From the NCBI GenBank assembly GCA_947627695.1, contig CANQXF010000006.1:62001-126000 (forward strand): a DNA stretch of 64,000 nucleotides, in the 5' to 3' direction. This DNA comes from an uncultured Ruminiclostridium sp. Lineage in GTDB: Bacteria; Bacillota; Clostridia; Oscillospirales; Ruminococcaceae. Shown here piece after piece: positions 18,973-33,151 of the stretch. Position 1 is the stretch's first letter. Each line of letters begins with the position of its first letter. The notes under the pieces were generated by a model that did no database searches, was not told the origin of the DNA, and was given only the letters and a program-made list of their open reading frames with translations. The position numbers and the translations under genes are program-made.

Positions 18973-20007
18973 TTATGCATAAATAAATGCCGAGTTAAGA
19001 TACCCCACCAGACCGTTATAGGCGGCTTTTGTCCAGGTAATGCCGTCCTTGTCAGCCTTTTGGTTCAGTATCACCAGCGAAACGCCCGCGGGGAGCGTTG
19101 TGAGCAGCTTGCCGTTTATACCTGCCGTTTCTCTCAGGTTCACCACGGCGGCGGTCTTTTTTATCTTGCCGTCGGTCTTTTTGAACACGCTGCCCTTGTC
19201 CACCCAGCCGTACACGTCGGAGCTTTCTCCTATCAGATGATAGGGGTGAAGTGCGTCCTTTGAAATATTGGTTATCTTTGCGATACCCGCTTTTCTGGGA
19301 AGTCCCGTGGGCTCCGTGGAGGAGGAAGCGCCGTAGTGCCAGCCGCCGCTGAACAGCACGCTCTCTCCCCTTTCAAAATCGGTATTGTCCCCCTCGGACG
19401 GCTCCTCAGCGCCTATCAGGGCGGGATAATCCACAAAGCAAAGGTCGCTGTCCAGCTTACCGTTTGAGCCTGCGCTGGACTCAGCGCCCCACTGCCACAT
19501 CTTCTGACCGTAGCTGTACTTGGTGTACTTTTCAGGGTCGTACGTCCAGTGCGCCAGCCAAAGGTCGAAGCTGTCCAGTATCTTTTTCTTGTCCAGCTTT
19601 GTTTCCAGCCACGATGGATTGGAATACAGCCCCGCACGGTAGCCCGCCGATCTCACCGTTTCAAGGAACGTGAGGGCTATTTCGGTGAGCTTTTCACGGC
19701 TCAGCTCCCACAAGGTGCTGTCCTCCATATCGTAGTAAACGGGGTAGGTCAGCTTGTAGGGCTGGAGCAGCTTCACGGCGTATTCCGCCTCTTTCCTTGC
19801 CTCCTCGGTGGTCTTTGACATACAGTAGCAGTAAGCGCCTACGTTAAGTCCCGCTGCAAGAGCGTTTTCCATATGGCTTTTGAACATATCGTCGGTCTTC
19901 TGGCGGTAGCCCGTGCGAATGATGACGTAGCTTATCCCCGACTCTTTCAACTTCCTGAAATCTATCCCTTTATTGGCATAGGAAATATCTATACCTCTGA
20001 AAGTCAT
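18973..20007 (-). CDS. GH25 lysozyme-type endolysin with C-terminal SH3-like region
   Basis: The 344-residue protein starts directly with a GH25 muramidase domain (residues about 1-200): FRGIDISYANKGIDF, YVIIRTGYR, the acidic pair in VYYDMEDS (about 110-117) and LWLAHWTYDPEKY. The rest (about 215-344) contains two SH3-like beta repeats, the last with NLRETAGINGKLLTTLPAG. There is no signal peptide, which fits an endolysin released by a holin. The holin gene lies 35 bases upstream on the same strand. It would cut the glycan chain of peptidoglycan. No other phage genes are present. Confidence 0.88.
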   Translation of the reverse strand: MTFRGIDISYANKGIDFRKLKESGISYVIIRTGYRQKTDDMFKSHMENALAAGLNVGAYCYCMSKTTEEARKEAEYAVKLLQPYKLTYPVYYDMEDSTLWELSREKLTEIALTFLETVRSAGYRAGLYSNPSWLETKLDKKKILDSFDLWLAHWTYDPEKYTKYSYGQKMWQWGAESSAGSNGKLDSDLCFVDYPALIGAEEPSEGDNTDFERGESVLFSGGWHYGASSSTEPTGLPRKAGIAKITNISKDALHPYHLIGESSDVYGWVDKGSVFKKTDGKIKKTAAVVNLRETAGINGKLLTTLPAGVSLVILNQKADKDGITWTKAAYNGLVGYLNSAFIYA

Positions 20008-20042
20008 GACAGATGATCTCCTTTCCTTACGGGAAAAGCGTT

Positions 20043-20441
20043 TTACTGCTTTTCCTTATTTTTTATCTGCGCAAGTGCGTCCTTTAGCTTCTGCGGCACG
20101 GGCAGACCCATTTCCGCCGAATTTTCGGTTATGCTCAGCGCCTCGTTGGCGATAAAGGCGAAGATGACGGCTGTCCTGAGCGCAGAGCCTCCGATCACCT
20201 GTGTATCTATTATATTCGCCACCGCCACAAGTGTGAAAAGCATAACCTTTTTGCAGATACCCTTAAATCCCACCTCGCTGGACATTGTTCCATTCACCGC
20301 CGCCGCCAGCATACCGGTGATATAGTCCAGCAGAGCAATGGCTATCAGCGCGGTCAGCAGTCCGTTCAGCTCCCCGAACAAAAAGCTGAACAGCGCTCCC
20401 ACAGACGCGCAGATGCAATTGAACGTAACGGATGTTTTCAT
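20043..20441 (-). CDS. Phage-type holin
   Basis: The 132-residue protein has several hydrophobic segments (about residues 8-24, 27-50, 68-85, 88-104) and the pattern of the phage holin family found in Firmicutes toxin-secretion/lysis cassettes, including LNGLLTALIAIALLDYITGM and a charged tail. It would make pores in the cell membrane so that the downstream GH25 enzyme can reach the wall. AAGGAGAAAGGGG lies before the start codon. A prophage remnant or a domesticated export cassette are both possible. Confidence 0.75.
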   Translation of the reverse strand: MKTSVTFNCICASVGALFSFLFGELNGLLTALIAIALLDYITGMLAAAVNGTMSSEVGFKGICKKVMLFTLVAVANIIDTQVIGGSALRTAVIFAFIANEALSITENSAEMGLPVPQKLKDALAQIKNKEKQ

Positions 20442-20867: not shown

Positions 20868-21548
20868 ATGAATATCCTGATAGCCGACGATGAAAAAGAG
20901 ATAGCCGACCTTGCGGAATTATACCTGCAAGGCGAGGGATACAATATTTTCAAATTCTACAACGGCCTTGACGCACTGGAATGCATACAGCACGAGGAGA
21001 TAAGCCTTGCCGTTCTGGACGTTATGATGCCCGGAATGGACGGCTTTGAGCTTTGCCGCAGAATAAGGGAAAGCTACGTCTTCCCCGTGATAATGCTCAC
21101 CGCAAGGGTGGAGGATATGGACAAGATAAAGGGTCTCACCCTCGGCGCAGACGATTACATCACCAAGCCCTTCAACCCCCTTGAGCTTGCGGCAAGGGTC
21201 AAGACCCAGCTTCGCCGCTACACCCGCTACGACAGAGTGGGAGCAAACGGCGAGGAGATAGACATTCGTGGACTTCACATCTCAAAGACCAACCACAAAT
21301 GCACTCTTAACGGCAAAGAGGTCCAATTGACCCCCATAGAGTTCAGCATTTTGTGGTACCTCAGCTCACGTCAGGGGCAGGTGGTGTCCTCCGAGGAGCT
21401 GTTCGAGGCTGTGTGGGGCGAAAAGTACCTTGACAGCAACAACACCGTTATGGCGCATATAGCAAGACTGCGTGAAAAGCTGGGCGAGCCCGCCCGCAAG
21501 CCCAGGTTCATCAAAACAGTGTGGGGAGTGGGATATACCGTTGAATAA
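20868..21548 (+). CDS. vanR: VanR-type response regulator
   Basis: The 226-residue protein is an OmpR/PhoB-type regulator. The receiver domain (about 1-115) has the acidic pocket ADDEK, the phospho-acceptor Asp51 in VLDVMMPG, and the conserved TKPF lysine near 100. The C-terminal winged helix (about 128-225) includes ELFEAVWGEKYLDSNNTVMAHI and TVWGVGY. It is the first gene of a vanG-type cluster and overlaps vanS by 8 bases. With VanS it would switch on the resistance genes when glycopeptide is sensed. Confidence 0.88.
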   Translation: MNILIADDEKEIADLAELYLQGEGYNIFKFYNGLDALECIQHEEISLAVLDVMMPGMDGFELCRRIRESYVFPVIMLTARVEDMDKIKGLTLGADDYITKPFNPLELAARVKTQLRRYTRYDRVGANGEEIDIRGLHISKTNHKCTLNGKEVQLTPIEFSILWYLSSRQGQVVSSEELFEAVWGEKYLDSNNTVMAHIARLREKLGEPARKPRFIKTVWGVGYTVE

Positions 21549-22896
21549 AATTTCCGAATGTGTAAAAAGCCGTGATTTCCGAAAAAAGTTCCTTAAAGGA
21601 ATGTGCATATATACCGTCGTATTTGCTGCGGTGCTCGTGGTGGGACTTGCCGTTGGTCAGGAGATAGTGTGGTACAAGGGCGATCTGTTCTACGACGTTT
21701 TCTCGCTGATAAGGGGCTTTCTCCTCCTCGTTTTGATAGAAGCATGGCTGGTGGGAGCAGGTATACTTTTCCTCGTTATGGCGCTGCATAAGGGCAAAAA
21801 CAAAACGGTGAGCCACATCGTACAGCGTTTCAGACAGCGTACTCTGTCCAATTACTTTATAACGCTTGTGCTGTACACGGCGGGACTTATATCTTTAGTC
21901 ATAGTGTCCAGAGTTGTCATTATGGGGATAAACTGGGACGTCTACAGTCTGCTGTACCGTTTGTTTTTATTTGCGGAAAGACATATTGAAGGAATTTTCC
22001 TTATTGCGTGGCTGTTGGGATTTATTATAATTTCCGTCCGCCTTGTCTACCGCCTTACAGGTTATCTTGACAAGACTGCGGAGGCGACCAAGGGGCTCCT
22101 TTCCGACCCAGCAAAGCCCGTCACTCTCCCCGATGGGATAAAGGGACTTCAGGACGACATAAACGGTGTGAGAGAGCGTTTTCTGGAAAGCGCCCGCCTT
22201 GCAAAGGAGGCGGAGCAGAGGAAAAACGACCTTATAGTTTACCTCGCCCACGACCTTAAGACACCGCTTACCAGCGTTATCGGCTACCTGACGCTGCTCA
22301 AAGACGAGCCTGACATTTCACCCGCAACAAGGGCGAAGTACACGGGCATAGCCTTAGACAAGGCTATGCGCCTTGAGGAATTGATAAACGAGTTCTTTGA
22401 CGTCACCCGCTTCAATCTCACCGCAATGACACTGCAAAAGGAGAGGATAAGCCTTTCCCGTATGCTGGAGCAGCTTGTGGACGAATTTACCCCTGTGCTG
22501 GCTCAGCAGTCCCTTTCCTGGGACGCAGAAATTGAAAGCGATATCCAGCTTTTCTGCGACCCAGACAAGCTGGAGCGCGTGTTTGACAACCTGATAAGAA
22601 ACGCGGCAAATTACAGCTACAAGAACACAAAAATCTCCCTCACCTTGAAAAATGACCAGAACAAAGCCGTGATAACGGTGAAAAATCACGGACAGACGAT
22701 ACCTCCCGAAAAGCTGGAAAAGATATTTCAGCAGTTTTTCCGCATAGATTCCGCCCGAAGCACCTCAACAGGCGGCGCAGGGCTTGGCCTTGCCATAGCA
22801 AAGGAGATAGTCGACCTTCACGGCGGGAAGATATTTGCCGAAAGCGCAAACGAGAGCATTTTCTTTACCGTTATCCTGCCTTTGGAGATAACGTAA
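21541..22896 (+). CDS. vanS: VanS-type sensor histidine kinase
   Basis: Starting at TTG 21541, which overlaps the vanR stop codon, the product has 451 residues. An ATG at 21601 is an alternative but its site is too close. Four hydrophobic segments are seen (about 22-40, 56-82, 105-130, 140-170). The HAMP-like linker leads into the HisKA box YLAHDLKTPLTS with His237. The ATPase part keeps the N box (DNLIRNAANYS) and G box (GGAGLGLAIAKEI). The order and close linkage with vanW-vanG-vanXY indicate VanS of a vanG-type system. What ligand it senses cannot be read from sequence. Confidence 0.87.
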   Translation: MNKISECVKSRDFRKKFLKGMCIYTVVFAAVLVVGLAVGQEIVWYKGDLFYDVFSLIRGFLLLVLIEAWLVGAGILFLVMALHKGKNKTVSHIVQRFRQRTLSNYFITLVLYTAGLISLVIVSRVVIMGINWDVYSLLYRLFLFAERHIEGIFLIAWLLGFIIISVRLVYRLTGYLDKTAEATKGLLSDPAKPVTLPDGIKGLQDDINGVRERFLESARLAKEAEQRKNDLIVYLAHDLKTPLTSVIGYLTLLKDEPDISPATRAKYTGIALDKAMRLEELINEFFDVTRFNLTAMTLQKERISLSRMLEQLVDEFTPVLAQQSLSWDAEIESDIQLFCDPDKLERVFDNLIRNAANYSYKNTKISLTLKNDQNKAVITVKNHGQTIPPEKLEKIFQQFFRIDSARSTSTGGAGLGLAIAKEIVDLHGGKIFAESANESIFFTVILPLEIT

Positions 22897-22933
22897 GAAA
22901 ATCTTAATAATTCCCACACAAAAAAATAAGTTA
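22892..22933 (+). promoter_or_regulatory. Candidate VanR-activated promoter of vanW-G-XY-T
   Basis: The end of vanS holds CGTAAGAAAATC and, 12 bases on, TTAATAATTCCC, closely similar to the CGTAAGA...AATTCCC region before vanR. A weak -10-like TAAGTT lies near 22928. No consensus -35 is present, as expected for an activator-dependent promoter. If correct, the RNA would start near 22940 and run through the hairpin at 22962. Confidence 0.4.
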
Positions 22934-22961
22934 TTTTTGGGAAAAAACAAATAAAAAACCG

Positions 22962-23006
22962 ACTTCGTTCAGCTAAAATTATAAGCTGAACGAAGTTTTT
23001 CTTTTT
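22962..23006 (+). terminator. Terminator or attenuator between vanS and vanW
   Basis: A perfect 13-bp stem (22962-22974 with 22984-22996), nine-base loop and T5CT5 run form a textbook intrinsic terminator. The vanW ribosome binding site starts one base later, leaving no room for a separate promoter after it. vanW-G-XY-T must therefore be read by passing this hairpin. Confidence 0.85.
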
Positions 23007-23022
23007 GAAAGGAATTTTTAAG

Positions 23023-23829
23023 ATGCAACGAAAACGACTGACCCAGCTTTTCCCCTTTCTTATCCCCTTGAGGACAAAACAGCGGAAATTCTGTTATTTT
23101 CTGAAAATGCGGTTTGACAAAAACACCTATTGCTCCGTCAAAAGCGGCTGTCCTCTGCCCTTTTCGGTATGCTCCCACCAAAGCTGTATCTACAATCATG
23201 ACACAGGCTTTGATATGATATACCAGGAGAACAAGGCGCACAATCTGCGTCTCGGTGCGGCGGCGCTGGAAGGACTGCTTATCCGCCCAAATGAGACCTT
23301 TTCCTACTCCCTCGCTGTCAAAAACGCCGACAAAAATACCCCTTACAAGGACGGACTTATTATGCGGGACGGAAAGCTCACCGCAGATTACGGCGGGGGA
23401 ATGTGCCAGCTTGCCGACCTGCTGTTCTCGCTTTTTCTCGACTCGCCGCTGACTATCACCGAGCGCCACGGGCATAAGATAAAGGATTTTCCCGACCCCG
23501 AGGGGGACAGCGCTTTAAAAGGCGGCGACGCCACCGTTTTTGAGGGTTGGCTTGATTTAAAAGTGAGAAACGACACGAATATGACCTTTCAGCTCACCTT
23601 TTCATTTCCCGACAATGAAATAAAAGGAACGCTTTTGTCCAATGAGAAGGACAGATATTCCTACAAAGCGGCAAACGGCAATGTGACGTTAAAGCAGGAG
23701 CAGGACGGACTTTATGAGGAAGCTCAGGTAGTCCGTGAAAAATATCTTGAAAACCGCCTTGAAAGCACCCAGCTTTTGTACGTCAACCGCTGTAGGATAA
23801 ATTATGAAATAAAGGAAAGGACGGCGTGA
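23023..23829 (+). CDS. vanW: VanW-family protein
   Basis: The 268-residue product has the VanW domain: NETFSYSLAVKNADK, KDGLIMRDGKLTADYGGGMC (about residues 108-145) and a conserved TERHGHKIKDFPDPEGDSA segment. VanW proteins accompany vanB and vanG clusters, but their biochemical role is not established. The ATG at 23023 has an AAAGGA site nine bases before it, better than a TTG further upstream. It overlaps vanG by 4 bases, so the two are translationally coupled. An intrinsic terminator directly precedes the gene. Confidence 0.88.
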   Translation: MQRKRLTQLFPFLIPLRTKQRKFCYFLKMRFDKNTYCSVKSGCPLPFSVCSHQSCIYNHDTGFDMIYQENKAHNLRLGAAALEGLLIRPNETFSYSLAVKNADKNTPYKDGLIMRDGKLTADYGGGMCQLADLLFSLFLDSPLTITERHGHKIKDFPDPEGDSALKGGDATVFEGWLDLKVRNDTNMTFQLTFSFPDNEIKGTLLSNEKDRYSYKAANGNVTLKQEQDGLYEEAQVVREKYLENRLESTQLLYVNRCRINYEIKERTA

Positions 23830-24866
23830 AAATGATAAATATCGGCGTTATCTTCGGCGGAAATTCCTCCGAATACGGCGTTTCCCTGCAATCTGCCTGC
23901 GGAGTGATAAACGCCCTTGACAGCAACAAATACAGCGTAAAGAAAATCTGGATAACGAGGGAGGGAAAATGGTACCTCTTTGAGGGCGGCACCGACCTTA
24001 TCTCACAGGACAAGCGCCTCGAGGAGCTTTCCTTTACCCTGATACTTTCCCAGAACAGCGGCGAAGGAATATTTGTACGAAAAAGCGGAGAGATAACGAA
24101 GTTGGAGATCGACCTGCTCTTTCCCGTACTGCACGGCAGGAACGGCGAGGACGGCACGGTGCAGGGCTTGGCTGAGCTGTCCCAAATACCCTATGCGGGC
24201 TGTAAGGTCCTTTCCTCCGCCCTTTGTATGGACAAATACCGAGCCCACAAGATCGTTGAAGCGCAGGGGATAAATGTCCCAAAAAGCGTACTTGTTTCAA
24301 GAAAAGACAGCCCTGATGAAATAAGGGAAAAAGCCCTTTCCCTCGGCTTTCCCGTTTTCGTAAAGCCGCTGAGGGCAGGCTCCTCCTACGGTATCGGCAA
24401 GGCGTATGACTTGAAAAGCCTTGAAGCGGCGGTAAAACAGGCGTTCCTCTACGACGACAGCGCAGTTTTTGAGGAAAGCATAGAGGGGAACGAGGTTGGC
24501 TGCGCCGTTATCGGCAGGGAAAGGCTGTTGACAGGAGAGCTTGATATGATAACCCTTAAGGGCGAGCTTTTCGACTACAACGAAAAATACCTTAACGCCG
24601 CCCAAAGGATAACCGTGCCCGCAAATTTGCCTCCCCAAAAGTCCGCCGAAATAAAGGAGATCGCAAAGAAGATCTACGCCGCGCTGGACTGCTCAGACTT
24701 CGCCAGAGTAGACGTGTTCCTTGCGAAAAACGGAGAAATTTACTTCAACGAGGTGAACACTATCCCAGGCTTTACGCCCCACAGCCGCTTTCCGAAAATG
24801 ATGGAGGCGGCGGGATATTCGATGAGCGAAACGCTTGATATGATAGTAAAGGAGGCTTTGAAATGA
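23826..24866 (+). CDS. vanG: D-alanine--D-serine ligase, VanG type
   Basis: This ATP-grasp ligase joins D-Ala to D-Ser; peptidoglycan ending in D-Ser binds vancomycin poorly. The 346-residue protein begins KMINIGVIFGGNSSEYGVSL, the N-terminal motif of VanG. It has LFPVLHGRNGEDGTVQG (about 98-114), the ATP-site KPLRAGSSYGI, EVNTIPGFTPHSRFP near the end, and an omega loop with EKY at residues 253-255, the form seen in D-Ser ligases (VanC/E/G) rather than the D-lactate enzymes. The start is GTG 23826, with an ATG two codons later. Specificity is an inference from the loop motif. Confidence 0.88.
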   Translation: MKMINIGVIFGGNSSEYGVSLQSACGVINALDSNKYSVKKIWITREGKWYLFEGGTDLISQDKRLEELSFTLILSQNSGEGIFVRKSGEITKLEIDLLFPVLHGRNGEDGTVQGLAELSQIPYAGCKVLSSALCMDKYRAHKIVEAQGINVPKSVLVSRKDSPDEIREKALSLGFPVFVKPLRAGSSYGIGKAYDLKSLEAAVKQAFLYDDSAVFEESIEGNEVGCAVIGRERLLTGELDMITLKGELFDYNEKYLNAAQRITVPANLPPQKSAEIKEIAKKIYAALDCSDFARVDVFLAKNGEIYFNEVNTIPGFTPHSRFPKMMEAAGYSMSETLDMIVKEALK

Positions 24867-25564
24867 TACTCACGGAAAACGACATTTACCGCGGCGACCT
24901 TATCCTTGTGAACGGGGAGCATATGTACCGCCGCGACGGTGAAACGCCTTTTGAAAGGGCAGGGAGCGAGCTTCTCTCCCAAAGGGCGGCAAGTGCGCTT
25001 AAATTGCTTCTGAAAGCAACTGACAGCGAGAATGATATAATCGTTGTCAGCGGATTTCGCAGCTATCAGGAGCAGCGTGAGCTGTGGGAAAGCTCCCTTT
25101 CTGAAAACGGCAGGGAATTCACCGAGCAGTATGTTGCGCGCCCCCTGCACAGCGAACACCAGACGGGGCTTGCGGTAGATGTGGGACTGAACGTCGAGGA
25201 AATAGACTTTATACGCCCGTATTTTCCCGATGAGGGAAAGTGCAGAGCTTTCCGCCTTAACGCCGCGAAATATGGCTTTATCCTCCGCTATCCTGCGGAC
25301 AAAGTGCATATCACCCGCATATCCCACGAGCCATGGCATTTTCGCTACGTGGGCGTTCCCCACGCAGAAATTATGGAGCAGAACGGCTTAACGCTGGAGG
25401 AATACACCGAATTTCTGAAATCCTATAACAAGAACGAGCTTATCTTCGGCGATTTTGCAGTTTTGTACCTTAAAGGGGAACGCCTACCGCTGGAGATCCC
25501 CGACGCCTATTCCGTTTCAGGCAACAACGTCGACGGCTTTGTGCTTTCAAGGAGGGCAAGTTGA
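24863..25564 (+). CDS. vanXY: D,D-peptidase, VanXY type
   Basis: The 233-residue zinc enzyme has the VanY/VanX ligand set: SEHQTGLAVD (His99, Asp106) and HEPWH (catalytic Glu156, His159), plus VVSGFRSYQEQRELW at 61-75. In vanC/E/G clusters VanXY removes D-Ala-D-Ala dipeptide and the terminal D-Ala of precursors, so only the D-Ser form is used. No signal peptide is seen, fitting a cytoplasmic VanXY. It overlaps vanG by 4 bases (ATGA) and the next gene by 4. Confidence 0.87.
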   Translation: MILTENDIYRGDLILVNGEHMYRRDGETPFERAGSELLSQRAASALKLLLKATDSENDIIVVSGFRSYQEQRELWESSLSENGREFTEQYVARPLHSEHQTGLAVDVGLNVEEIDFIRPYFPDEGKCRAFRLNAAKYGFILRYPADKVHITRISHEPWHFRYVGVPHAEIMEQNGLTLEEYTEFLKSYNKNELIFGDFAVLYLKGERLPLEIPDAYSVSGNNVDGFVLSRRAS

Positions 25565-26553
25565 AGGAGCAGGGCGGGCTCGACCTGTTCCGCATTGCGG
25601 CGGCGCTGATGGTGATAGCCATACACACCATATCGCCGGAAAGCAGCGGGGGGGGGTACAGCTTCTTATTGACCCGCATTCTGGCGCGGCTTGCGGTGCC
25701 GTTTTTTCTTATGGTGACGGGGCATTTTGTCCTTTCCTTTCCGCCCGACAGGGTGAAAAAATACCTGAAAAGCTCGCTGAAAGCCTATCTCGCAGTAACG
25801 CTCCTATATCTTCCCTTAAGCCTTTACGGCGGATATTTTGAGGACCTCTCCCCCTATACTCCGCTGAAATTACTGCTGTTCGACGGCGTTTACTATCATC
25901 TCTGGTATTTTCCCGCCGTAATAACTGGGATATTTATAGTACTCTTTCTGCAAAAGCATTTTTCGCCCCAATCAGCCCTTGCGATATGCGTATTCCTTTA
26001 TTTTATCGGACTTTTAGGCGACAGCTATTATGGCTTTGCCGCCGAAAATCCTGCAATATCAAATGCATACGACATCATCTTCACCATTTCAAGCTACACC
26101 CGCAACGGTATCTTTATGGCGCCGCTGTTTCTTCTGCTGGGCAATTCCGCCCCGAAAGCAAGCGTAAGCGAGCGCCTTTCCCTGTACGGCTTCGGCGTTT
26201 CCTTCCTGCTGATGACAGGGGAGGGAATGGCTTTGCGCCTGCTGCAAGTTCAGCGCCACGACAGTATGTACTTGTTCCTGCCCATTTGCGCCTTTTTCCT
26301 TTACAGGCTACTGCTGATCCCTCAAATAAAGCCTTTCCCCTGCCTGCGAAAAATCTGCGGCGCCGTCTACGTTATCCACCCTGCGGCAATTATTTTTATA
26401 AGAGGAATTTCAAAGCTGCTTGGCAAAGCTCCGCCTGACGGACTTTTAAACTTCGCCGCCGTCACCGTCATTTCATTTTTCGCCGCAATTTTACTGTATA
26501 TCCTCCGCAGAAAAATTTTTGAAAAAAGACAAAACAAAAGCTCCGTGCCTTAA
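25561..26553 (+). CDS. vanT: VanT membrane domain only; serine racemase domain missing
   Basis: The 330-residue protein starts at TTG 25561, coupled to vanXY by a 4-base overlap and preceded by AAGGAGG. It has about ten membrane segments of the acyltransferase-3 type, beginning LDLFRIAAALMVIAIHT, as in the N-terminal half of VanT. Full VanT proteins are about 700 residues, with a C-terminal PLP-dependent serine racemase; here that half is absent. The last ten or so codons lie inside the terminator of the opposing protease gene, and the stop codon is in its loop. A run of nine G (25648-25656) lies at codons 30-32. The remnant might still move L-Ser, as proposed for this domain, but D-Ser would need another racemase. 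Alternatively it is a plain acyltransferase-3 protein; position favours VanT. Confidence 0.72.
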   Translation: MKEQGGLDLFRIAAALMVIAIHTISPESSGGGYSFLLTRILARLAVPFFLMVTGHFVLSFPPDRVKKYLKSSLKAYLAVTLLYLPLSLYGGYFEDLSPYTPLKLLLFDGVYYHLWYFPAVITGIFIVLFLQKHFSPQSALAICVFLYFIGLLGDSYYGFAAENPAISNAYDIIFTISSYTRNGIFMAPLFLLLGNSAPKASVSERLSLYGFGVSFLLMTGEGMALRLLQVQRHDSMYLFLPICAFFLYRLLLIPQIKPFPCLRKICGAVYVIHPAAIIFIRGISKLLGKAPPDGLLNFAAVTVISFFAAILLYILRRKIFEKRQNKSSVP

Positions 26554-26564
26554 AGACACGGAGC
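26540..26564 (-). terminator. Terminator of the subtilase gene, overlapping the vanT end
   Basis: An 8-bp GC-rich stem (26540-26547 with 26557-26564) is followed on the minus strand by a T-rich run (complement of 26521-26539). It lies 36 bases after the protease stop. The plus-strand T run is weaker. Confidence 0.8.
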
Positions 26565-26599
26565 CTTGTTTCGTCAGAAACAGATATTCAAGCTATCGC

Positions 26600-29500
26600 T
26601 TAATCTCTTTTCTTACGGAAGATGATAACGCCCATTGCTGCAATAGCCACAGCGGCTGTTGCTGCAATTCCTGCAAAGCTGTTGCCGGTAGAGGGGTTCT
26701 TATCAGTGAGGTCGACCATAACTGCGGTAACTGCGATGTTACCTGTTACAGCCTCGCCCTTGATCGTTACCTTGCCGGTAGCAGGGTCGTAGGTGTACTT
26801 AGCTGCGTCAAGAGCAGTGCCGTCAACAGTAACGGTAATGTTCGCAGGCAGCTTGTATCCTTCAGCAGGAGTGATGGTGAACGTAAGGTCTTCGCCCTTA
26901 GGAGCAGTAGCGGGAGCGTCAGAGGTTCCCTTGCCGCCAAGGTCTACGGATACGTCTACATCTTCTGAAACGGGAGCCTGTACTTCAGGAAGTTCAACTG
27001 TAACGTCTTCCGTTGCAGGAACTTCGTCGCTGGGCTTTCCGTCTTCGTTGTAGGTGAGGATTATGTTGGTCTTAAGACCGGACTCGTCCGCCTCGTCATA
27101 GGTGAATACCAGTTCAGCAACCTGCTTGTTAAGAGCGTCGGCAGCGGCGTAGTCAAATACCACGTTGCCTGTGGTCTTATCGTTGAAGCTGAAGTAATCG
27201 GTATTGCCCTTAACACTGTCAAGAGTAAGCGTCTCAGCGTCATATTCAACGTTGAACAGACCGTTGGTGCTGTTCACTGCGTCTACCTTGACGGTGATAG
27301 TGTTCTTTTCAGTGTCAACAACAACGTTTTCGCTTTCTGTATCAGGCTTTGTTTCGTCGTCGTTTACAACGATAGCGTTAGTGGAGCCTATCAGACCGGG
27401 AACTGCTTCGGGCTGTGCGGATTCGTTTGCACTTTCGTCAGCAATCGCGCTGATAACGTTCTCGGTGTCTATCGCCATCTGAGCGTCGCCTATAACAGCG
27501 TTGAGTCTGTCAGTGCGTGCGCCTGTCTCAGCAACGGTGTCGTCAACGTACTGATACAGTGAAACTGCGGAGCTTACAGTTGCGTCAAACTCAGACTTAC
27601 CGGTGCTTATTGTTGTAACATTGCCGAGCTCATCATACTCTACCTTGATGACAGCAACTGCGGGAGCGTCCATAGAACTTTCCGAATAGTAGGAAAGTAC
27701 GAACTGATCTGCCGTTGTGCTTCCGTCAAAGTCGTAGATCATTGAAGCAAAGTTGTTGCCGTCTGCAACGGAGCTGGAAACGCCTGACAGGTCAAGACCG
27801 CAGTTTCCGATGTATCCGGTTCCTACGCCGCCTTCAAACGTGATCATAAACAAGTACATATCGCCGTTTTCGCACAGGCATGCGTAGTAGTCAATACCAT
27901 CCGTTTTGTTCAAGCCGATCCATGCAATTGCGGCAATGTTAGAGCTGAAGTCAGAGCTTAAGTCAACAGGTCCGAACAAAGAGCCTGCGATAGGATCCAT
28001 CAGCATGATAGCGGCAGTTCCTGCCTGAGGAGCAACCATAAGAGGACCTTCGCCGTAGCCATACTGCTCAAAGAAGTTGTTGGGAGCAGCGTCGGAGAAC
28101 AGATAAATGGGATTGATATCGAACAGCTTCGCATACTCAAACGTCTCAGCGTCTGTCAGATATACAGCGCTGCCGTCATGAGTGAAGAGGTAAGCTTCTT
28201 CCATATAATCGCCCCAAGCCATACCTGCTCTGTAATTAGGCATATCAGCATTGCTCAGCTTAGTGATGTCGGACAATTTGTCGCTGTTGAACTTGCTCCA
28301 TGCGCCTTCGCCGTCAGTGCTGTTTACAAATCCTCTCAAAGGAACTGAAGGAAGCGATTCAACTGTTACCTTGATCTCGACCTTAACGTTGGGATCTGCA
28401 GCAGCAGCGGCTGTAACGGTAGTTGAGCCGGTAGAAACAGCGCTGATAAGACCGTTCATATCAACGGTCGCTACCTTTTCGTCAGCAGAAGTCCATGTAA
28501 CGTCACGGTTCTTCAGCGTCCAAGGAGATACCGTTGCTGTAACGCGTACAGAACCGCCTTCCAGCATGGAAACTTCGGTCTGGCTTACGTTCAGGCTCTC
28601 TACCTTGGTGGCAGGAGTATCGTCGATCTCTATTTTATCTTCGGAAGGAACAACGTACAGAGATTTGCATAAGCCGAAAAGACTTGCTTCTGCTTCATTT
28701 GCATAGTATGCTTCTTCATTTTCCAGGTCTATGATGAACAGAGCATTGAAGATAAAGCCGAGCTCGCCATAAACAGGAGTAGCGTCATTAGCCATATACA
28801 GTGTCTTCTTATCATAGTCCCAAGCAAGTCTGCCTGCGCCTTCAGTCAGAATGTTGAATGACTGCTGAATGGTGAGGAGCTCCTTGCCATTTGAATTATC
28901 CTTTGTCATTACAAATGCAGCGACATCCTCGGGGTCATTATCGTTGATACCTGACAGATAGAAATTGCCCTCAGCGTCAATAGCAAGACCGCTGGGTGTG
29001 TAGATCGTAGCAACTTCATCACCGATGAACAGATACGGGAAATATGCGAACTCAATATATCCGGTAAGAGGATTGATTTCATATATGTAGCCTGCGTCAG
29101 ACAGAGCATACAGCTTGCTGTCTGCATAGTTGAACGCCATATCGATGATGGTTTCGCCTTCAAGCACGTCATTGTCCAGAGCAGCGATAGCGGTGAATAC
29201 ACCGGGATCTACCTGAGGAGCAACGTACAGAACGCCGTCATCGCCTACCTGGAATACATAATCGTCAGCGTAAGCAGCTGCGGTTATGTCAACAGGAGTT
29301 ACGTCGAACACTTCCATGCCCACATCGTCCCATACGCTGATCGTTTCGGGGTCAATGGTCACCCAGGTGTTTGCGCCATACAGATCATCGAAGAAACCGA
29401 ACATTTCGCCGGAGAAGTCGATAGGATCGGTGCTGTATGTAAATTCTTCAGTTGTGATGTTGAACGCGTAGTCGATAACTTCGATATTCACAACCTGACG

Positions 29501-32500
29501 AACGCCTGCCGCGGCAAGCTCCTCAGCGGTGAATACGACAGTAACCTCTTCGTTTTCAGCCTTCTGGTCGGGAATTACCTGACCGTACAGAATAGCGCCG
29601 CTTCTGCTGATAAGGCTTACAGCAGCAACGTACTGGTTGTCCTTAACAGTTATGCGCAGGTCGCCTTCATTGTTTTTGCCCACGTTAGTGATAACGGGCG
29701 CGGTATCGTCGATGTTGAGTCTGGTGGTCATGAATGCGCCGTCGCCAAGCTCGCCGTTTTCAACAAGCTCAGTGATCTGATCTGCTGTAAGATCGCGTCC
29801 GTAATATTCGGGTACTGCTACCAGACTTACGTTAATTGCGTCGCCTTCCTTGACGCCCAGATCCTTAACAGCAACGTTGACGTTGAACTTGCCTCTTGTA
29901 TTCTGCCATGTGCCGTTGCCGTCATAATAGTATGCGGGGGTAACGTCATATGCGGGAGAAACTATTTTCAGCACTTCGCCGGTTTCAGCGTCGGTTATTA
30001 CTGTCGTCAGTTCGCCAGCATTGCGTATCAGCGTGTACATATAAGAGCTGATCTTGTCCGCGCTGTTGATAGCTACCCTATCAAAAGGATATACGCCGTT
30101 TTCGGTAATGAGACCGGCATAGGGGTTGCCGCTGATGTAGAATTCATGTCCCATATCAGCGTCATAGAAGCTAAGTATGTTAGTGGCGGTGTTTCCGGTG
30201 TAAGGCAGATGTCCTTCACTCAGGTCATATGCGCCGCCATTTGAACCTTCACTCTCTTCGTCAATAGCAAAGTATCTGTCGAACATTGTAGCGTCCGTCC
30301 AGCTGCCGTAGAAGCCGAGGATAGGAATGGAGTGAGAAACGTCCAAAACGCCTTCCTCAGTGGAAACAGCGTTAATGAACGTAAAGCCCTCTACGTAAGC
30401 GCCGTTTTCGTAGTATTCGTCAAGTATAGCCTTGGTATCGTCGGTAAGGGCGATATCAACAGTTACGTCGACGGATCCGCCTGCGGGAACGGTCACCAAC
30501 GTTTTGAGCGCCGCAAGGATAAGATGAGCGTCGTAGGTGGTTATCTTTTCATCGCCGTCAACGTCGCCGGTAGCAAGATCAAGATCGTCACCGCTTACGT
30601 TTTTGGCTATGTAATCCAACAGCGCCTGAGCGTCCTTGCTGTTTGTAACGCCGTCCTTGTTCACATCTGCGTCGATGTCCGCGAAGCCGCCTGTTTCAAC
30701 ACCGTCTACGGTGTAGGTGACGTCAGCGTCCAGCGATGTGGTCCAGCGATCCAGAAGTAAAGTGGGATCCTCCTCTGAATACATGAACAGATCCTGTGTG
30801 AACATATCTGTACCCAGAATATAGGACTGGTCGTTGTCATAGAAATTGTTTATGCTGAATGAGAAGCTGTATTCACCTGTTTTGTCAGGGTCGTCGCCAA
30901 GCTCAGCCTTTACCTTGCCGTCAGAAGCGGAAACGGGGTCAAGGGTGGAGCCTTCGTCCATAAGGATATAGGAGTGAGCCTGTGTTGCAGCGCCTACGTT
31001 TGCAAGACCTGCGCCCTGAACAAGTATAGAATACCAGCTGGAATAGTTGCCGTCAGAGTTGGTGTCTTCGCCAAAGCCTTCCGCAACGGGTTCGGCAGTT
31101 GACATCAGCAGGCTCTGCATCAGCTGACGTTCGGTAAGACCGGTCTTTTCAGTAAGACCCTCTTCCCTTATGTACTGAGCCAGAACTGCAACCATACCTG
31201 CTACCTGAGGAGCAGCCATAGAAGTACCACTCATATTTTCATATGAAGTGCCGCCGGGGATAAGACCGTTTACGGAATAGATATTTCCGCCGGGAGCAGT
31301 TATCTCAGGCTTCATTTCCAGACTTCCGGGAACGCCCCATGAGCTGAAGTCGCTCATAGTGTAGAAAGTAACGTCTTCGGGAATAGAGGAAGAAACCTTC
31401 TCATTGACCGTCATTGTGCCGGTGTAATAAGTAATTCCGTCTCTCTCTGCCTTTTCTCCTGCGCTCTTGAAGTATTCACCGTCAGCCTGTGTAATGGAAA
31501 CAGCGGGAACGGTTCCTGTATAATCGCTCAGGTCCATATTGATAACGCCGGGCTGATTGTTTACGATGATAACGCCTACTGCGCCTGCTTCCGCGGCTGC
31601 ATTTGCCTTTGCGGAGAAGTTGGAAGTGCCGCGGTAGCACATTGCTATCTTGCCCTTTACCAGATCCTTGAGCGTATCAAAGTAGTCGTTATCGGTATCA
31701 ACGCCGATGTTGTCGAGAAGGATATAATCGTGTTCGCCTGCAATGGTCTTGTAAGGCGGGTTGTTGTAATCGGTGCTTTCTGTATAGAATACAGCATGTC
31801 CGCCAACGGTAAACGTGTCGCCGGTAGCGCCCACGTTATCGATGGAAGCTACTGAAAGGGCGTTGGTAAAGGTTGAGGGATTGCCTACCATAGCCAGATT
31901 TACGTCGTCGCCGTACAGATAGCCTTCATAACCGTTTTCAGCATTGTCCGCATATGTACCGGAGTTGCCTGCCGAAGCAGTAACAACTGCAGTGCAGTCT
32001 GCCAGCTTATCCAGTATATCCTGGTATATGTCGTCATGGCTGAAGCCGCATGAAGAACCGAGAGACAGGTTTATGCTGTCTGCACCCAGAATGATAGCGT
32101 CCTCGATAGCTGCCATATAGTCTGCGTCATATGCACCGCCGCCTGTACCGAACACCTTCATGGTGATGACCTGTGCGTCGGGGGCAACGCCCTGTGTATT
32201 GACTTCATCGAGTGCGCTTACAAAGCCGCCCTTGCCGTCGGGGATATAACGGTTGGCTGCTGCTATACCTGTAACGTGAGAACCATGTTCACCCTCGGTG
32301 TCATTGTCATGAGTGATGTCATAGTTGCCGTCAACGTAGTTATAAGCGAAAGGTACCTTGTCGCTGAGGTGGAGATCTTCTGCATCAGCGTTGCCGTTTG
32401 CATAAATGTTGAGCTGTTCCAGAACCTTGGCAACGTCCTCCTGCGTAAGAGTATCTCCTGTGTAGCCGTCCTGCTCCAGAGCATACAGGTAAGCGTCATT

Positions 32501-33151
32501 GTTAAAGGACTGGTGGTCGGAGTCGATACCTGTATCGATTACCGCAACAACACTGCCTGCGCCTTTGTATCCGCTTTCATAAGCAACGTTGCTGCCTATC
32601 ATCTGGGAGGACGTCATCATGTTGGGATCGTATTCATCAACGGTAGCCTTGGATGCTTCATACTTTGTTTCAAGGAATACGTCCTTAACGCCCTTGATGT
32701 TTTTGATCTCTTCGATCTGTCCGTACTTGACGTTTGCTGAAATAATGTTTGCCGCAAGTGTCAGATTCCAAACAACGTCCAGATCCTTTCCACCGAGAAC
32801 CTTGTTTTCGATGGTCGTCTCGAGAGATTCCTGCTTTTCGCTCAGGCTTTCTCTGTAAGCGACAGCCTGTTCGTCAACGGCAATGGTGTCAAGGCCATAT
32901 CCTGCGTCGATCGTGGATTTATCCCATAAAACTATGGATACACGAACGACCTGATCGTCAGGGATATCAACTTGATCATCATCGCTGTTCTGAGCAGGAA
33001 CTCTGAGGTTGGAAGTGAGACCGGACTGTGAAAGCTTCAGGCTTTCAAATGAGTCGTCGGCGGCACTTGCAGGGATAGCTGCGCTTGTAACTGCCAGAGA
33101 AGCAGCCAGAAGTGCGGCTATCCAGCGCTTGAATGAATTGTGTTTACTCAT
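26600..33151 (-). CDS. Giant cell-wall subtilisin-like protease with dockerin and cohesin-like domains
   Basis: The 2183-residue protein has a signal peptide (1-30), an I9-type propeptide (about 68-165) and an S8 catalytic domain (about 190-720): Asp206 in VVAVIDTGID, His289 in GEHGSHVTG, oxyanion Asn396 in SAGNSG, Ser644 in MSGTSMAAP. A PA-type insert (about 480-560) splits it. A type I dockerin lies at about 825-885, with two calcium loops (DADVNKDGVTNSKDA, GDVDGDEKITTYDA). Later come a beta-propeller-like part (about 1270-1500), a Big_2 Ig-like domain (about 1515-1605) and a cohesin-like domain (about 1940-2050). The end has NPSTGN, a hydrophobic helix and RKKRD: a variant sortase signal. 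The full design resembles cell-envelope proteinases. An internal, not terminal, dockerin is unusual. The substrate is unknown. Confidence 0.88.
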   Translation of the reverse strand: MSKHNSFKRWIAALLAASLAVTSAAIPASAADDSFESLKLSQSGLTSNLRVPAQNSDDDQVDIPDDQVVRVSIVLWDKSTIDAGYGLDTIAVDEQAVAYRESLSEKQESLETTIENKVLGGKDLDVVWNLTLAANIISANVKYGQIEEIKNIKGVKDVFLETKYEASKATVDEYDPNMMTSSQMIGSNVAYESGYKGAGSVVAVIDTGIDSDHQSFNNDAYLYALEQDGYTGDTLTQEDVAKVLEQLNIYANGNADAEDLHLSDKVPFAYNYVDGNYDITHDNDTEGEHGSHVTGIAAANRYIPDGKGGFVSALDEVNTQGVAPDAQVITMKVFGTGGGAYDADYMAAIEDAIILGADSINLSLGSSCGFSHDDIYQDILDKLADCTAVVTASAGNSGTYADNAENGYEGYLYGDDVNLAMVGNPSTFTNALSVASIDNVGATGDTFTVGGHAVFYTESTDYNNPPYKTIAGEHDYILLDNIGVDTDNDYFDTLKDLVKGKIAMCYRGTSNFSAKANAAAEAGAVGVIIVNNQPGVINMDLSDYTGTVPAVSITQADGEYFKSAGEKAERDGITYYTGTMTVNEKVSSSIPEDVTFYTMSDFSSWGVPGSLEMKPEITAPGGNIYSVNGLIPGGTSYENMSGTSMAAPQVAGMVAVLAQYIREEGLTEKTGLTERQLMQSLLMSTAEPVAEGFGEDTNSDGNYSSWYSILVQGAGLANVGAATQAHSYILMDEGSTLDPVSASDGKVKAELGDDPDKTGEYSFSFSINNFYDNDQSYILGTDMFTQDLFMYSEEDPTLLLDRWTTSLDADVTYTVDGVETGGFADIDADVNKDGVTNSKDAQALLDYIAKNVSGDDLDLATGDVDGDEKITTYDAHLILAALKTLVTVPAGGSVDVTVDIALTDDTKAILDEYYENGAYVEGFTFINAVSTEEGVLDVSHSIPILGFYGSWTDATMFDRYFAIDEESEGSNGGAYDLSEGHLPYTGNTATNILSFYDADMGHEFYISGNPYAGLITENGVYPFDRVAINSADKISSYMYTLIRNAGELTTVITDAETGEVLKIVSPAYDVTPAYYYDGNGTWQNTRGKFNVNVAVKDLGVKEGDAINVSLVAVPEYYGRDLTADQITELVENGELGDGAFMTTRLNIDDTAPVITNVGKNNEGDLRITVKDNQYVAAVSLISRSGAILYGQVIPDQKAENEEVTVVFTAEELAAAGVRQVVNIEVIDYAFNITTEEFTYSTDPIDFSGEMFGFFDDLYGANTWVTIDPETISVWDDVGMEVFDVTPVDITAAAYADDYVFQVGDDGVLYVAPQVDPGVFTAIAALDNDVLEGETIIDMAFNYADSKLYALSDAGYIYEINPLTGYIEFAYFPYLFIGDEVATIYTPSGLAIDAEGNFYLSGINDNDPEDVAAFVMTKDNSNGKELLTIQQSFNILTEGAGRLAWDYDKKTLYMANDATPVYGELGFIFNALFIIDLENEEAYYANEAEASLFGLCKSLYVVPSEDKIEIDDTPATKVESLNVSQTEVSMLEGGSVRVTATVSPWTLKNRDVTWTSADEKVATVDMNGLISAVSTGSTTVTAAAAADPNVKVEIKVTVESLPSVPLRGFVNSTDGEGAWSKFNSDKLSDITKLSNADMPNYRAGMAWGDYMEEAYLFTHDGSAVYLTDAETFEYAKLFDINPIYLFSDAAPNNFFEQYGYGEGPLMVAPQAGTAAIMLMDPIAGSLFGPVDLSSDFSSNIAAIAWIGLNKTDGIDYYACLCENGDMYLFMITFEGGVGTGYIGNCGLDLSGVSSSVADGNNFASMIYDFDGSTTADQFVLSYYSESSMDAPAVAVIKVEYDELGNVTTISTGKSEFDATVSSAVSLYQYVDDTVAETGARTDRLNAVIGDAQMAIDTENVISAIADESANESAQPEAVPGLIGSTNAIVVNDDETKPDTESENVVVDTEKNTITVKVDAVNSTNGLFNVEYDAETLTLDSVKGNTDYFSFNDKTTGNVVFDYAAADALNKQVAELVFTYDEADESGLKTNIILTYNEDGKPSDEVPATEDVTVELPEVQAPVSEDVDVSVDLGGKGTSDAPATAPKGEDLTFTITPAEGYKLPANITVTVDGTALDAAKYTYDPATGKVTIKGEAVTGNIAVTAVMVDLTDKNPSTGNSFAGIAATAAVAIAAMGVIIFRKKRD

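Follow-up and report, generated by a model that had tools for sequence, protein, structure and literature searches.

An uncultured Ruminiclostridium sp. (assembly GCA_947627695.1) carries, within a 64,000-nucleotide stretch of contig CANQXF010000006.1 (positions 62,001 to 126,000; the whole stretch is referred to here as the window), a six-gene van resistance cluster in which VanT is present as its membrane half only. The reading we favour, with a probability of roughly 70%, is that this is an inducible D-alanyl-D-serine (D-Ala-D-Ser) cluster with no racemase domain of its own, that D-serine (D-Ser) is made by the only alanine racemase (Alr) of the genome, which bears an asparagine at the specificity site, and that the membrane half of VanT performs a separate task. 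Because asparagine replaces the specificity tyrosine, this Alr is, as far as its residues can tell, probably a dual racemase acting on both alanine and serine.

The cluster occupies positions 20868-26553 in the order vanR-vanS-vanW-ligase-vanXY-vanT, with all genes in one direction, their ends overlapping or close, and all six reading frames open. This is the gene order proposed in an earlier note on this DNA, and open reading frames and family scans confirm it, with a ligase that is VanG-like. The features of the cluster and of its downstream junction are the following.

20868..21548, plus strand: VanR-type response regulator of 226 amino acids (NCBIfam vanR_ACDEGLN, 380 bits, passing the cut-off of 350).
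21472..22896, plus strand: VanS-type sensor kinase (NCBIfam HK_VanS, 394.7 bits, slightly below the cut-off of 400); the coordinates give the earliest possible start, the real one probably lying further downstream.
23005..23829, plus strand: VanW accessory protein (NCBIfam vanW-gen, 344.4 bits, missing the cut-off of 365; Pfam VanW, 108.9 bits, passing).
23826..24866, plus strand: VanG-like ligase, probably D-Ala--D-Ser (NCBIfam D_ala_D_ser_VanG, 444.3 bits, missing the cut-off of 495).
24863..25564, plus strand: VanXY-type D,D-peptidase (NCBIfam vanXY_G, 209.3 bits, and vanXY, 208.3 bits, both below cut-off; Pfam VanY, 108.7 bits, passing).
25561..26553, plus strand: membrane (AT3/TmAT) half of VanT only, without the racemase half (vanT-CELN positions 3-335 of 697, 248.6 bits).
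26600..33151, minus strand: facing S8 protease, outside the cluster, marking the junction (Pfam Peptidase_S8, PA, Big_2, Dockerin_1).
26537..26567, minus strand: terminator-like hairpin of the facing protease gene, with the VanT stop codon inside it (pattern scan, 14 pairs).

The cluster therefore has vanRS, a ligase and vanXY of van type, and encodes no serine racemase, be it VanT or VanTr. We call it VanG-like only, because the ligase stays below the cut-offs of both the VanG model and the general D-Ser model of NCBIfam (357.6 bits against 520); its best match among solved structures is 4fu0 (335.5 bits). In an alignment of 37 ligases, the D-Ser positions retain F, EKY and R in 10/10 racemase-less rows, the window ligase included, and likewise in 12/12 rows with a fused VanT. 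The Phe and Arg are positions that we take, from work on VanC2, to mark D-Ser ligases. Judged by these hallmarks, the suggestion in the earlier note that the ligase might use another substrate appears not to hold. The window genome has two more ligase genes above 140 bits, and these are available for the housekeeping role.

The VanT frame encodes 330 amino acids from a TTG start that overlaps the vanXY stop. The product is a VanT membrane domain, as the earlier note took it to be, and no unrelated acyltransferase-3 (AT3) protein, because it reaches 248.6 bits against vanT-CELN (full-protein cut-off 900) and 164.2 bits against vanT-L-mem (cut-off 675) versus 67.8 bits against the generic Pfam Acyl_transf_3 model (positions 3-325 of 326). 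The racemase half is indeed missing: six racemase queries gave only chance-level matches in the 3 kb downstream of VanT, and the lowest E value of such queries downstream of VanT in any of eight stretches from the genus was 0.25. With no D-Ser source in the cluster, D-Ser must come from elsewhere, a point on which the note was right. A run of 9 G lies inside the gene at 25648-25656 and is also 9 G long in the related genome G048; in another relative, L005/G028, it counts 11 G (L005, L152) and the VanT frame is shifted, a length difference that may reflect either phase variation or a mistake in the assembly.

We took 71 genomes of the genus and, for comparison, 394 from its order and 391 from its class. 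A VanT-like gene was found in 8/71 genus genomes, each time adjoining a van ligase, and all eight lack the racemase half, since their open frames of 333-384 codons are too short for it. Contig ends were considered as the cause and rejected: only G036 ends near the VanT stop (48 bases), and each of the other seven clusters is followed by roughly 4 kb of DNA or more. Outside the genus, 44 distinct genomes had a VanT match, with a racemase that is either fused to VanT or its immediate neighbour in 37 of them (truncated by a contig end in G173, G480, G793 and G827) and no racemase in two (G353, and G768, whose own VanT is cut short); the remaining five comprise two contig edges (G609, G674) and three genomes with no ligase beside VanT (G110, G130, G838), of which two, G110 and G130, carry a VanT-type racemase after a different van ligase. 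The racemase is thus kept in 0/8 genus genomes versus 37/39 assessable genomes outside (Fisher p 1.4e-7, ignoring kinship). A first scan, restricted to 26 named loci with identities of 36% or above (L005-L030), had given 16 fused and 3 adjacent racemases (one at a contig end), 4 clusters without one (two from this genus), 2 loci without a van cluster and 1 cut by a contig end. Among the racemase-less clusters outside the genus, the L020 genome has a separate racemase with Asn away from the cluster (L173), and L029/G353 has two atypical weak racemase matches, with His in one (weak alignment) and a gap in the other. In G768 (L309), the VanT frame has 239 codons, no racemase match was found in the 6 kb downstream, and the cluster is likely decaying. 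We found no report of a racemase-less VanT, or of an Alr replacing VanT, in the accessible portions of the open-licence literature.

Where, then, could the D-Ser come from? The window genome is 100% complete in 67 contigs and contains one Ala_racemase_C gene, the housekeeping Alr with both domains (L003:1627-2757). A search with Ala_racemase_N recovered this Alr and one 244-codon open frame elsewhere, the latter without an Ala_racemase_C match, so that neither a second full alanine racemase gene nor a VanTr was found in the genome with these two models. The earlier expectation that another racemase would be needed survives in part: no extra enzyme was found, and the sole Alr has the serine-type Asn. 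Exactly one Ala_racemase_C match is present in seven of the eight genus genomes with VanT, whereas 16/17 VanT genomes of the order outside the genus have two or more (the second being weak, 43-68 bits, in G100, G173 and G353). D-amino-acid transaminase was also considered as a source and set aside, its best match in the window genome reaching 33.4 bits (cut-off 277) and the matches across the eight genomes 31.7-38.2 bits. In three further genomes of 1.3, 1.1 and 2.9 Mb (L022, L026, L033), the sole Ala_racemase_C match is an Asn-bearing racemase beside VanT, which may therefore supply D-Ala too.

PMC4517790 equates Gln360 of AlrTt, which adjoins Ile358 and Pro359, with Tyr354 of Geobacillus Alr. 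In our alignment TIPQEV (4y2w) corresponds to TISNEV in the Alr of the window genome, so that the residue at the Tyr354 site is Asn350; the equivalent motif of VanTG (4ecl) is SITNEL. Another candidate for the site, Ser358 (AVSSRVPR), was ruled out by the 4y2w alignment together with PMC4517790. PMC3485190 gives Asn as the VanT residue at this position and names the two innermost tyrosines as what determines specificity for alanine. For AlrTt, with Gln at the site, PMC4517790 reports a relative activity on L-Ser of 28% that drops dramatically in Q360Y, and it describes a much wider specificity for DadXTt, which has His.

Within the genus we sampled 60 genomes for this residue, of which 56 are given and 55 have a readable site (unread were G015, G016 and G039, in which no Alr was found, G054, whose fragments were left out, and G024, whose site was uncovered). 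All seven readable Alrs from genomes with VanT depart from tyrosine, with Asn in five (G000, G028, G048, G001, G007) and His in two (G032, G036), while 47 of the 48 genomes without VanT have Tyr and one (G049) has Asn (Fisher 3.9e-8, ignoring kinship). Outside the genus, 52/57 fetched racemase loci are given, the five omitted being genes already in under another handle; this reading covers matches with a locus, weak matches without one being left out. Among the 47 rows that reached the site, 26 have Asn and 21 Tyr (one Tyr gene appearing twice, L169/L256). Asn is found in all 18 VanT-fused racemases, in the three adjacent to VanT (L156, L167, L168) and in the two adjacent to a van ligase (L270, L271), and also in L173, in L268 (G122) and at a contig start in G173 (L255); stand-alone racemases have Tyr, except L173 and L268. 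Five rows fall short of the site, namely a fused racemase with Asn (L177), one gene with His in a weak alignment (L170/L258) and two with a gap (L181, L183).

Taken together, these data suggest how the system might work. VanS would sense the glycopeptide and VanR would switch the operon on; D-Ser would be supplied by the Asn-bearing, presumably dual Alr; the ligase would join D-Ala to D-Ser; and VanXY would remove those precursors that end in D-Ala. The VanT membrane half would be kept for a separate membrane task, either the supply of L-Ser or, as the intact AT3 motif suggests, acyl transfer.

The racemase-less clusters of the genus do not share one origin. In a tree of 39 VanT membrane domains (hand-chosen rows, G028 being omitted because of its frame-shift), genus sequences fall in three places: group A (window, G048), joined loosely to three fused VanTs and the second-copy proteins (support 84/86); group B (G001, G007, G015), joined to nine fused VanTs (100/99); and group C (G032, G036), joined to two split VanTs (94/86). 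Some branches of this tree are long, and the exact neighbour of group A is the least certain. A single clade of the seven genus rows was rejected (p 3e-7), as was each pair of groups (p 5e-5, 0.0016 and 1e-4), and the tree of the 37 ligases recovered these three groups, placing G028 in A, and again rejected one clade (p 2e-10). These tests reject a common origin of the VanT genes of the genus, which holds at least three racemase-less clusters of different origin. The racemase half was lost, or the cluster arrived without it, at least three times in the genus; that the direction was loss and not gain is inferred from the neighbours in the tree.

We built a host tree from Alr (with the site masked) and two Ddl-type genes, with some data missing, from assemblies of varied completeness; the Alr tree itself was used for topology only. 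The sister of clade A (Asn, with VanT) is G034, which has Tyr and lacks VanT (support 97/95), B and C are united at 100/100, and the placement of G049 and G055 is not settled. At least three changes between Tyr and non-Tyr and two changes in VanT presence are required, and grouping G015 and all non-Tyr rows in a single clade was just rejected (p 0.042). Asn is encoded by AAC in group A, in G049 and in two genomes of B (G001 and G007), His by CAT or CAC in C, and Tyr by TAT in G034 and G055. Several observations weigh against the interpretation we prefer. The seven VanT genomes with an Alr are confined to one 10-genome part of the Alr tree, so that the match between residue and VanT counts few independent events, and just one or two independent pairs differ in VanT status, too few for testing. 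G049 has Asn in its Alr without a VanT, which fits a residue change before the arrival of the cluster or a cluster since lost, and G015 (76% complete), with a VanT, has no Alr and no Ala_racemase_C match in its assembly. When ten Alrs and that of the window genome were scored with the VanTG racemase model, two from genomes without VanT scored higher, and the idea that these Alrs resemble VanT over the whole protein was dropped, as they are no closer to it than the remaining Alrs of the genus. As for the ligase, the only NCBIfam cut-offs that it passes are those of general D-Ala--D-Ala ligase models, and it passes none for a D-Ser model. Finally, our racemase searches are blind to racemases of unknown families.

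What, then, does the membrane half do? Six pairs of relatives, which cover all three groups, give VanT a ratio of non-synonymous to synonymous substitution rates (dN/dS) of 0.12-0.26. The DxxRx10H motif in the first transmembrane segment (D8, R11, H22), an AT3 signature described as important for function in PMC12423673 and PMC9833829, is invariant in 29/29 VanT-type rows, and two of three outgroup rows lack the D or the R; the FxxxxG motif is also kept. Purifying selection and an intact acyltransferase motif argue that the membrane half has a role of its own. In PMC9558356 the role of the VanT AT3 domain is called unknown and an L-Ser transporter is proposed, a proposal also found in PMC6182600, and PMC12423673 states that the AT3 function of VanT has so far not been considered although resistance mutations fall within it. 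In PMC11326576, vanT mutations were fixed in 4/10 lines of C. difficile, but, against too simple a link with resistance, they did not reproduce it when introduced singly. A bolder proposal, which we advance tentatively and would not wager on, is that the Alr residue turned serine-type more than once, which let this gut genus gain three unrelated D-Ser van clusters and shed their racemase halves, and that the AT3 half is indispensable and acts alone, most likely as a membrane acyltransferase and not as an anchor or serine carrier.

Besides the VanT of the cluster, the window genome encodes another VanT-membrane protein, 40% identical to it, and such a copy without van genes occurs in both G000 and G028. 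In the region concerned (L154:4077-7973, contig C4), its gene follows immediately on one for an ECF sigma factor and one for an 803-amino-acid protein without a Pfam match, and no ligase or racemase match was found in the 15 kb scanned.

Each of the competing explanations can draw on part of this evidence. D-Ser might come from the gut, or from an enzyme that belongs to none of the alanine-racemase families, and be imported by the VanT membrane half, the Asn of Alr being incidental; purifying selection on the membrane half, its proposed role as an L-serine transporter (PMC9558356 and PMC6182600) and the second membrane protein without adjacent van genes fit such a scheme. We nevertheless regard it as unlikely, as it leaves unexplained the non-Tyr residue in 7/7 readable Alrs of VanT genomes versus 1/48 of the others, and the membrane half has an acyltransferase motif and matched no transporter family in Pfam. 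Somewhat less probable still is a cluster that no longer makes D-Ala-D-Ser, either since its ligase uses D-Ala or another substrate or since it is decaying. The absent racemase and the sub-threshold ligase scores point that way, as do the frame-shifted VanT of G028, the vanW of G007 in two frames, and the ligase of G055, a genome of the same host clade without VanT, in which Leu takes the place of the key Arg; against this stand the hallmarks retained in the window ligase, nine other racemase-less and 12 fused-VanT rows, a dN/dS of 0.05-0.27 in ligase, vanW, vanXY, vanS and vanT and of 0.01-0.13 in vanR (pairs of relatives), and the two further ligases that can serve housekeeping.

The earlier note had also supposed that the racemase half was lost by a deletion that joined the gene to the terminator of the protease, which we consider very improbable as a recent event. 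The last VanT codons and the stop (26551-26553) do lie inside the minus-strand hairpin (26567-26537), as it had observed, and L005/G028, with a VanT 92% identical to that of the window, has the identical junction. On the other hand, the VanT of L006/G048 (81% identical, 324 amino acids) has an equivalent end point, no protease beside it and its own strong hairpin and T-run just after the stop, and two further lineages of the genus are racemase-less as well; the facing protease was matched in L005/L152, and L006/L151 and the remaining genus loci that were searched gave no match to it. The loss of the racemase half is therefore older than the protease neighbour, the short form is ancestral for the clade of the window and G048, and a recent deletion of this kind is refuted as the cause of the loss, though it may explain how the protease arrived beside the cluster.

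Compared with known systems, the cluster resembles vanG (ligase 4fu0, VanTG racemase 4ecl) in the kinds of genes, the nearest ligase subfamily and the ligase hallmarks, and differs in that VanT has no racemase half and the ligase, VanW, VanS and VanXY score below NCBIfam van cut-offs. The specificity switch between Tyr354 of Geobacillus Alr and the Asn of VanT was reportedly described by Patrick (2002, cited in PMC3485190); the site is identical here and the VanT residue is present, yet it occurs naturally, in the sole chromosomal Alr alongside a racemase-less van cluster. A free-standing VanT membrane protein is shared with the split vanL cluster (VanTm/VanTr), where VanTr lies beside VanTm, unlike in the window genome, in which no VanTr was found; both vanTm and vanTr are listed in a review (PMC11597547). 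With AT3/TmAT acyltransferases, the membrane half shares the DxxRx10H and FxxxxG motifs, and it differs in belonging to a D-Ser-type van operon and having no known acyl acceptor. If our interpretation is true, this would be a natural takeover of a resistance function by a housekeeping racemase, at the very site singled out by mutagenesis. The two halves of VanT are here separated in nature, and genomes with the membrane half alone make its role directly testable. Furthermore, resistance predictions that demand an intact vanT would be expected to miss such clusters.

Some further observations concern the clusters and their surroundings. Between the window and G048 (L151), dS is 0.39 in vanXY and vanT and 1.1-1.6 in vanR, vanS, vanW and the ligase, and the window cluster looks mosaic. 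The vanW of G007 (L147 5551-6356) is split over two overlapping frames and is therefore broken or mis-assembled, and G055 (L279) has a van-type ligase, with Leu at the D-Ser-ligase Arg position, and a VanXY-like protein. Divergent from vanR, at 18973-20441 on the minus strand, a GH25 lysozyme with an SH3 domain lies beside a Phage_holin_4_1 protein; the pair adjoins the cluster in L005 and L006 too, placing a lysis-like pair next to a cell-wall resistance cluster.
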